NCBI GenBank assembly: GCA_028693955.1
Contig: JAQUUH010000004.1
Span: 1-49,039 of the forward strand
DNA: 49,039 nt
Origin: Bacilli bacterium
Lineage (GTDB): Bacteria > Bacillota_I > Bacilli_A > RFN20 > UBA1709
Direction of reading: 5' to 3'
Shown here: piece by piece, positions 23,234 to 38,291 of the stretch
Layout: the number at the start of each line of letters is the position of its first letter
How positions within the stretch are numbered: position 1 is the stretch's first letter
The notes under the pieces: model-generated
Seen by the model: the letters and a program-made list of their open reading frames with translations, nothing else
Databases searched by the model: none
Told to the model about the DNA's origin: nothing
Program-made: the position numbers and the translations under genes

Positions 23234-23545
23234 CTATAATTTAATCTCAATATCAACACCACTAGGTAAATCTAATCTTGTTAGAGTATCTACTGTTGTT
23301 GGATTTGGATCTACAATATCAATTAATCTTTTATGTGTTCTCATCTCAAATTGTTCGCGGGAATCCTTATATTTGTGGACTGCACGCAAAACAGTATAAA
23401 CTTGCTTCTCTGTAGGAAGCGGAACTGGTCCAACTACTTTTGCACCAGTATTTTTGGCTGCAGCCACAATTTTCTCTGCTGAAGCATCAAGAATTCTGTG
23501 ATCGTAAGCCTTTAATTTAATTCTAATCTTATTACTTTTAGCCAT
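23234..23545 (-). CDS. rpsJ: 30S ribosomal protein S10
   Basis: S10 (NusE) is a 30S head protein that also binds NusB and NusG in antitermination. The 103 residues contain [46 protein letters not shown] and end in VDIEIKL. It is the first gene of the S10/spc/alpha operon, behind a strong promoter and a structured leader. Confidence 0.98.
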
Positions 23546-23590
23546 GAACTTTCCTCCTTTGTCTAAAATCTTGGCATAGACTGTGCTCCA

Positions 23591-23663
23591 TCTAAATTAC
23601 CTAGGCTGCCGTCATGACAACGCCTGTTTGTGTTTCAGGACATCGGCACCTAGCAACTTTAGA
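23591..23663 (-). promoter_or_regulatory. structured S10-operon leader, candidate L4-responsive element
   Basis: The roughly 130-nt rpsJ 5' UTR folds as one long hairpin of stacked helices: TCTAAA/TTTAGA outermost, CTAGG/CCTAG, TGCCG/CGGCA with a bulged G, then CCTG/CAGG around an A-rich loop. S10-operon leaders bound by L4 are known in Gram-negatives and Firmicutes. The structure is seen in the sequence, but the ligand is inferred from position. Confidence 0.65.
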
Positions 23664-23684
23664 CTTCTTCACACTCGTGGATTT

Positions 23685-23714
23685 ATTTTATCAAAAAAAG
23701 GGTCTAATAGTCAA
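23685..23714 (-). promoter_or_regulatory. main promoter of the S10/spc/alpha operon
   Basis: TTGACT and TAAAAT are separated by 18 bp on the minus strand, with TGA before the -10. No other convincing promoter was seen down to rplQ. The -35 lies in the loop of the preceding gene's terminator. Confidence 0.85.
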
Positions 23715-23720
23715 CCCTTT
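23693..23720 (-). terminator. terminator of the 124-aa membrane protein gene, overlapping the S10 promoter
   Basis: On the minus strand AAAGGGT and ACCCTTT form a 7-bp stem around the 10-nt loop TGACTATTAG, followed by TTTT. The hairpin starts 7 bases after the stop codon. Most of the S10-operon -35 box is in the loop. Confidence 0.8.
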
Positions 23721-23726
23721 TATATT

Positions 23727-24101
23727 CTATTTTTCTTCTTTAATGTTATCTTTTGTGTTTTTTTCTTCTTCCACATTTTTTTCAGCCTCTTCTTGCTTGC
23801 GTTTAGCGGCATAAGCGGCTTCCACTTTTGAAATACCAAATTTCAATATGAACCCATTTATAACTAAAATTAGTCCATAAACAGCAATTACTACTATTGC
23901 AATATCTTCAAAAAAATAGTACGCCGGAGATATTAATAGTGAAAAAACTAATGACCTAATGCCCCACTTTTTGAAAACCTTAGTCTCTTGCTTTTCTCTT
24001 TCGGAAGTATCTGCTCCTGTTTTTAAAAAACAAGAAGTTATAAATTGCATTGCCCCAACTAAAATTGTTGCTCCAATTAAGGCCCAAACTCTGCCAGACA
24101 T
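23727..24101 (-). CDS. hypothetical small membrane protein
   Basis: I do not recognise this 124-residue protein. Three hydrophobic segments are visible (about 5-25, 50-65 and 68-90), separated by a short charged loop (TSEREKQETKVFKKW). A roughly 30-residue highly charged, probably helical tail follows, rich in Lys and Glu (KRKQEEAEKN). It has its own promoter and terminator and stands between tuf and rpsJ, where B. subtilis has ybaC, to which it shows no resemblance. It may be a membrane protein with a cytosolic tail. Function is unknown. Confidence 0.8.
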   Translation of the reverse strand: MSGRVWALIGATILVGAMQFITSCFLKTGADTSEREKQETKVFKKWGIRSLVFSLLISPAYYFFEDIAIVVIAVYGLILVINGFILKFGISKVEAAYAAKRKQEEAEKNVEEEKNTKDNIKEEK

Positions 24102-24124: not shown

Positions 24125-24153
24125 ATTTTATCACACTTTTTATTTGTAAGCAA
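24125..24153 (-). promoter_or_regulatory. promoter of the 124-aa membrane protein gene
   Basis: TTGCTT and TAAAAT are separated by 17 bp on the minus strand, with TGA before the -10. The -35 starts in the last two bases of the T-tract of the tuf terminator. Confidence 0.8.
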
Positions 24154-24184
24154 AAAAAAAGAAACTCATTCAGAGTTTCTTTTT
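24152..24184 (-). terminator. intrinsic terminator of tuf
   Basis: On the minus strand GAAACTC and GAGTTTC pair around TGAAT, extended by A-T pairs, and a run of nine T follows. It starts 12 bases after the tuf stop. Confidence 0.92.
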
Positions 24185-24196
24185 TCATTTATTAAA

Positions 24197-25381
24197 TTAT
24201 CCTAAAATTTCTGTTACGTTTCCAGCACCAACAGTTCTTCCACCCTCACGGATAGAGAATCTTGTACCTTGTTCAACAGCGATTGAATGGATTAACTCAA
24301 CTGTCATTTGAATATTATCACCTGGCATAACCATTTCAACACCAGCAGGTAATTCAATAATACCTGTTACATCTGTTGTACGGAAATAGAATTGAGGACG
24401 ATAATTTGCAAAGAATGGAGTATGACGTCCACCTTCATCTTTAGACAAAATATAGACTTGAGCTTTAAATTTCTTATGTGGATGAACTGATCCTGGTTTT
24501 GCTAATACTTGACCACGAATAACTTCATCTCTATTAACACCACGAAGTAAAGCACCAATATTGTCTCCTGCTTCGGCGTAATCTAATAATTTACGGAACA
24601 TTTCTATACCAGTAACAACTGTTGCCTTTGTTTCTCTAATACCAACAATTTCTGCTGGATCATTTAAATTCAAACGACCACGTTCAACTCTACCTGTTGC
24701 AACAGTTCCACGTCCTGTAATTGTAAAGACGTCTTCTACTGGCATCAAGAAAGGTTTGTCTGTTTCACGAACTGTTAATGGAATATAAGTATCTACTGCT
24801 TCCATTAATTTTAAAATGTTTTCTTCTTCTTTTGGATCTCCTTCAAGTGCTTTTAAAGCAGAACCTCTAATAACTGGGCAGTTATCTCCATCATAATCAT
24901 AAGAGCTTAGTAATTCTCTTACTTCCATTTCTACCAAATCGATTAATTCTGGGTCATCTACTGCATCACATTTGTTTAAGAAAACAATTATACGTGGAAC
25001 TCCAACTTGTCTTGATAACAAGATGTGTTCACGTGTTTGTGGCATTGGTCCATCTGTTGCAGCGACAACAAGGATTGCCCCATCCATTTGAGCGGCACCA
25101 GTAATCATGTTCTTAATATAATCAGCATGTCCTGGGCAGTCAACGTGTGCATAGTGACGATGTTCTGTTTGGTATTCAATGTGTGATGTGTTAATTGTAA
25201 TACCACGAGCTTTTTCTTCTGGAGCAGCATCAATTTCATCATATTTTTTTACTTCTCCGCCATATTTTTTTGATAGTATTGTAGTTATAGCCGCAGTTAA
25301 TGTTGTTTTTCCATGGTCAACGTGACCGATTGTTCCAATATTAACGTGTGGTTTACTTCTATCAAATTTTTGTTTTGCCAT
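24197..25381 (-). CDS. tuf: elongation factor Tu
   Basis: EF-Tu delivers aminoacyl-tRNA to the ribosome. The 394 residues have G1 [10 protein letters not shown]2 [10 protein letters not shown]3 DCPGHADY, G4 NKCD and G5 SALK, then the two beta-barrel domains. Length is normal. It follows fusA by 92 bases with its own promoter, so it can be made in excess of EF-G. Confidence 0.98.
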
Positions 25382-38107: not shown

Positions 38108-38164
38108 TAATGGCACCTCCTATCTTTTTTGATATTTTTATGGAAACCAATATACTTTATGTAG

Positions 38165-38196
38165 AATTTAAAACCCATACTCTTGAGGTATGGGTT
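38165..38196 (-). terminator. attenuator hairpin in the rplJ leader
   Basis: On the minus strand AACCCATAC and GTATGGGTT form a perfect 9-bp stem around CTCAAGA, followed by TTTAAATT. It lies between the L10-binding element and the rplJ start, where an attenuator is expected. The T-tract is weak. Confidence 0.65.
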
Positions 38197-38199
38197 ATT

Positions 38200-38285
38200 T
38201 AGCATAGTAAATATACTTTATTAACTTCAACCTCGGCAACATTATTAAACTTTTTAGTCGTTGCTGTCTTTGGCATATTGATTAC
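38200..38285 (-). promoter_or_regulatory. L10 leader (autogenous control of rplJ-rplL)
   Basis: The minus-strand leader contains ATGCCAAAGACAGCAACG and, about 30 nt later, TTGCCGAGGTTGAAG. These are the hallmark elements of the bacterial L10 leader kink-turn region bound by L10(L12)4. Recognition is from the conserved primary motifs and from position between promoter and rplJ. Confidence 0.85.
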
Positions 38286-38291
38286 TGATTT

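Follow-up and report, generated by a model that had tools for sequence, protein, structure and literature searches.

In the window (the whole stretch of DNA analysed, 49,039 nt), the 37-nt segment AAAAGGGTTGACTATTAGACCCTTTTTTTGATAAAAT (23721-23685, minus strand), which lies 3' of a 124-aa gene's stop codon and 5' of rpsJ, contains both a hairpin of the intrinsic-terminator kind and a strong sigma-A-type promoter. We consider it likely that this is a compact dual-use junction of two co-directional units, in which the same DNA serves as insulating terminator and as S10 promoter. The original prediction had claimed that one segment ends one transcript and starts the S10 operon, the largest ribosomal-protein operon. 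The arrangement is supported by the anatomy, by the order-wide conservation of the promoter and the conservation of the leader RNA that follows it, and by the same nest in one other genus, while we infer that termination and initiation actually occur at the segment. The underlying observation holds and now covers a second genus as well; it is a real, but probably mundane, instance of signal sharing.

A hairpin and a promoter on the same nucleotides

The gene order on the minus strand is tuf, the 124-aa gene, rpsJ, L3, L4 and the remainder of the S10 operon. The features of the locus are, in the direction of transcription:

24197..25381, minus strand: tuf (EF-Tu), the next gene 5' of the 124-aa gene (ORF translation, named from sequence)
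24152..24186, minus strand: tuf terminator, a long hairpin with A/T-rich ends and then T9 (14-bp fold, -15.2 kcal/mol)
24125..24153, minus strand: candidate promoter of the 124-aa gene, TTGCTT-17-TAAAAT with extended TG (sequence)
23727..24101, minus strand: 124-aa gene, a predicted membrane protein with a charged C-terminal tail (ORF translation)
23693..23721, minus strand: intrinsic-terminator-like hairpin (RNA fold; conserved in genome G002)
23721-23713 paired with 23704-23696, minus strand: hairpin stem arms, with the loop at 23712-23705 (RNA fold)
23709..23714, minus strand: -35 element TTGACT of the S10 promoter, within the hairpin (sequence, promoter scan)
23699-23693, minus strand: T-run of the hairpin, T7 (sequence)
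23685..23693, minus strand: extended -10 TGATAAAAT, which shares its first T with the end of the terminator T-run (sequence)
23690-23685, minus strand: -10 hexamer TAAAAT of the S10 promoter (sequence)
23678, minus strand: probable transcription start, 7 nt beyond the -10 and about 4 nt ahead of the first leader helix (from promoter and leader placement)
23546..23678, minus strand: S10-operon leader RNA, homologous to RF03136 (alignment, covariation, Rfam matches in relatives)
23234..23545, minus strand: rpsJ (ribosomal protein S10), first gene of the S10 operon (ORF translation)

The hairpin starts 5 nt beyond the last base of the 124-aa stop codon (23727). RNA folding gives it a 9-bp stem (AAAAGGGTT/GACCCTTTT), an 8-nt loop (GACTATTA) and an energy of -10.3 kcal/mol, which two to three of 200 dinucleotide shuffles equalled. 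Directly followed by T7 and placed 3' of a coding gene, it has the make-up of an intrinsic terminator. Termination may be weak, given that G-C pairs number only three in the stem and that the stem can take up four of the seven T of the T-run by pairing. A generic terminator scan did not list the hairpin, probably because those four T pair into the long A-U-ended stem and too few T are left in the tail window.

The elements first described, a stem AAAGGGT/ACCCTTT enclosing most of the -35 element, are all present, and with a stem of that extent TGACT lies in the loop. The hairpin stands, and its stem, first given as 7 bp, lengthens to 9 bp on folding, so that the TT of the -35 element falls within the stem, with GACT left in the loop. 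The T-run (23699-23693) was likewise correctly located in the promoter spacer, between TTGACT (23714-23709) and TAAAAT (23690-23685), and its last T (23693) also opens the extended -10 motif TG(A)TAAAAT. Masking of the -35 element by the hairpin was considered and rejected, since sigma reads duplex DNA while the fold is in the RNA of the upstream transcript.

The S10 promoter and its leader RNA

The promoter, TTGACT-18 nt-TAAAAT with an extended TG, matches the consensus at 10 of 12 positions, has hexamers and a spacing (16-18 nt) of the sigma-A (sigma-70) type, and ranks among the better matches of the region in a promoter scan. A promoter could be placed in 28 of the 29 S10 upstream regions from the same order, with 121-162 nt between the end of its -10 and the rpsJ start codon (139 nt in the window); these placements were not blind, as hexamers in the second pass were entered by eye for each genome under the guidance of a first automatic pass. 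Given this matching position in 28 of 29 relatives, just upstream of a conserved leader, the assignment of the segment's promoter to the S10 operon, as originally proposed, is strongly supported.

The consensus structure of the leader comprises 15 predicted pairs, 13 of which show double-sided changes in at least one sequence (alignment, covariation). Relatives match the Rfam family RF03136, some of them above its gathering score of 35.1 bits (G008, 36.1 bits; G017, 37.8 bits), and G003, from the same family as the window, falls under it (31.7 bits). The window leader returned no RF03136 match even at E up to 1, and it aligns along its full length with that of G008 and others. It shares with the RF03136 S10-Clostridia leader the order of helices, the conserved motifs GTTGC, GTTGTC, GGAGCA and GTCTA, and the location between promoter and rpsJ, but it differs in carrying a 15-nt insertion and in staying below the Rfam threshold. 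This insertion is common to the four genomes of the window's family and was seen only there. A separate, new class of leader RNA had been suspected from the Rfam blank in the window, and was dropped once relatives matched RF03136, a family that Rfam also detects in B. subtilis and L. lactis. Because the first leader helix begins at about 23674, transcripts with the full leader must start upstream of that position; a start near 23678 fits the leader, and one further downstream is excluded.

Several other leader features were noted in passing. A second, free-standing copy of a leader loop motif, ACRC....GTTGTCRT (e.g. AAACGCGGATAGCCGTTGTCAT), occurs upstream of the S10 promoter and outside the leader in some relatives (L014:1249, L016:2064, L020:2100, L022:1237), with looser variants recognized by eye in L012, L017 and L018; in the portion of the window's genome that was examined, none was found. 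The copy may represent an RNA in its own right or a binding site that was duplicated. Genome G017 has two rpsJ copies (C1:2652-3077 and C6:67563-67995), whose proteins share 69% and 80% identity with that of the window and both of which have an RF03136-type leader of their own; this reflects either duplication or assembly contamination. Elsewhere in the window, an L10 leader (RF00557, above its gathering score) at 38158-38291 on the minus strand directly follows a promoter (38320-38292) that has an extended -10.

Recurrence of the nest and chance expectation

The same nest is found in one relative of a different genus within the same family, G002 (L003), whose gene order is tuf, a 143-aa gene and rpsJ, and whose middle protein is 37% identical to the 124-aa protein of the window. 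Its junction, AAAGGGGTTGACTTTCAACCTCTTTTTTTGTTAGAAT, has the same -35 element, 18-nt spacer and T7G as the window, and a hairpin with an 11-bp stem (-12.5 kcal/mol). Between the two stems one A-U pair has become G-C through changes on both sides, and two further pairs are altered on one side and still paired.

Among the relatives compared, only the window and G002 have a hairpin of -9.8 or better that overlaps the -35 element. Two other members of the family, G001 and G003, have no such hairpin at the S10 promoter, and their nearest upstream genes (a 480-aa ORF in G001, tRNAs in G003) run in the opposite direction, as would be expected of a hairpin serving a co-directional gene upstream of it. 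In the rest of the order, any terminator found is positioned upstream of the -35 element (e.g. G008, G017, G024); the weak folds that do overlap it (-5.4 in G017, -4.0 in the genome of L015) are within the expectation for A/T-rich sequence. The nest is thus rare, being kept by one other genus and absent from the other relatives examined.

The 124-aa protein itself has no Pfam match over the cut-off, and no further copies of its gene occur in the searched contigs of the window's genome. Its relatives among 40 related genomes are confined to G002, in the same place, apart from a 580-aa frame that gave two weak, partial matches. Upstream of this gene, the tuf terminator T9 ends in the two T that begin the gene's own candidate promoter, TTGCTT-17-TGATAAAAT (window 24125-24160, minus strand), and in G002 the tuf T-run ends shortly before TGCTAGAAT. 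The tuf/124-aa junction is a milder overlap of terminator and promoter than the S10 segment.

How readily such a nest arises by chance bears on the reading that the terminator does not work, i.e. that inverted arms happen to flank the -35 element in A/T-rich DNA and that the 124-aa gene is co-transcribed with the S10 operon. When the hexamers were held fixed, the remaining sequence was shuffled and terminator-like folds as good were counted, 5.3% of dinucleotide shuffles matched the window and 0.64% matched G002; none of 5000 mononucleotide shuffles did so. Taken singly, a locus exceeds chance only marginally, and the case for the nest lies in its recurrence in G002. The joint null is about 3 in 10,000 if the window and G002 are independent, a figure that their relatedness weakens. 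We also sampled 491 kb of the genome with a simple script and crude gene calls. Among its 62 terminators between co-directional genes, the present site was the only one with a -35 element inside the hairpin at a promoter score of at least 11 (null mean 0.095, P ~0.1). Promoters clear of, or further downstream of, terminators were strongly enriched in the 491 kb, and looser promoter thresholds gave no clear excess of nesting there, the looser nested matches resembling chance matches in A/T-rich sequence. Nesting as a genome-wide habit was therefore rejected, there being a single good-promoter case among the 62. The 5% chance at one locus under the strictest null, together with this lack of enrichment, speaks for a non-working terminator; against it stand the correct placement of the hairpin right after the stop codon and the fact that it recurs in G002, where the stem is longer and compensated and the T7 unchanged, at the joint null given above. 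We regard the chance reading as improbable.

Possible polymerase traffic at the junction and its significance

In the dual-use junction that we favour, a polymerase leaving the 124-aa gene would make the AAAAGGGTT-GACTATTA-GACCCTTTT hairpin and stop in the T-run at about 23693. Sigma-A polymerase would read the same DNA as a duplex (TTGACT, 18 nt, TGATAAAAT), start near 23678 and make the S10 leader. The bases could be shared without conflict because the two readouts differ, one being an RNA fold and the other the recognition of duplex DNA. The overlap probably originated by intergenic shrinkage around a fixed, conserved promoter, and would have been kept since both functions are needed. From the geometry, the promoter is necessarily covered by any polymerase that is at the termination site, which makes both occlusion and direct re-use possible; these would act in opposite directions and are equally compatible with the sequence.

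Occlusion was raised in the original prediction. As a regulatory device, whereby polymerases reading or terminating in the segment cover the promoter and cut S10 initiation, so that the upstream unit tunes the S10 operon down, it draws on the expectation that the footprint of a complex stalled at 23693 would extend over spacer, -10 and start. Geometry makes such cover inescapable for as long as a polymerase occupies the termination site; its size and any regulatory use are hypothetical. Dwell at a terminator is, however, short relative to the intervals between initiations, except under very high transcription of the upstream gene, a level that the 124-aa gene is not known to reach, and a lowering of ribosome synthesis would be an odd trait to keep in two genera without other benefit. 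We think this reading quite improbable.

The re-use alternative is that, after release of the 124-aa RNA, the polymerase stays on the DNA, gains sigma and starts the S10 operon, so that upstream transcription feeds it. Termination site and S10 start are about 15 bp apart, near the minimum possible distance, and the neighbouring tuf/124-aa junction is likewise overlapped. E. coli polymerase mostly remains on DNA after intrinsic termination and reinitiates nearby with distance-dependent efficiency (PMC6978380, PMC6978322, PMC7957599, PMC11347151), distance being the main factor for reinitiation in vitro (PMC6978322, PMC6978380, PMC7957599). The demonstration was, however, made in vitro with E. 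coli enzymes; diffusion spans hundreds of base pairs, so that nesting would be unneeded; and in most relatives the S10 promoter has no nested terminator. This hand-over of polymerase seems to us unlikely, and it is very unlikely that the nest is a selected hand-over element through which the tuf, 124-aa and S10 units are coupled, by two successive overlapped junctions, without read-through RNA. Coupling of neighbouring units has been proposed, and not shown in vivo (PMC11347151).

The favoured dual-use junction has recognizable parallels. In B. subtilis no major termination site is more than 952 bp away from a start site (PMC11347151). The present segment shares with the terminators of E. coli and B. 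subtilis that are found near downstream promoters (PMC11347151) a terminator closely followed by a co-directional promoter, but here the -35 element is inside the hairpin, the T-run is in the spacer, and about 15 bp separate termination from start. With post-termination recycling (PMC6978322, PMC6978380, PMC7957599) it has in common a geometry that would favour reinitiation in the sense direction, although that work concerns another organism and recycling needs no overlap. A literature search on overlapping terminators and promoters, with most subscription journals outside its range, returned no close bacterial precedent by name. The segment is a new example of an already known kind of arrangement.

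For annotation the case advises caution, in that a terminator with a -35 element in its stem can escape simple scans. If polymerase hand-over were true, the segment would offer a natural test case at near-zero distance for reinitiation, so far shown mainly in vitro on E. coli templates. For the organism itself, the overlap shows how far regulatory DNA can be compacted in a 0.9-Mb genome with both functions kept.
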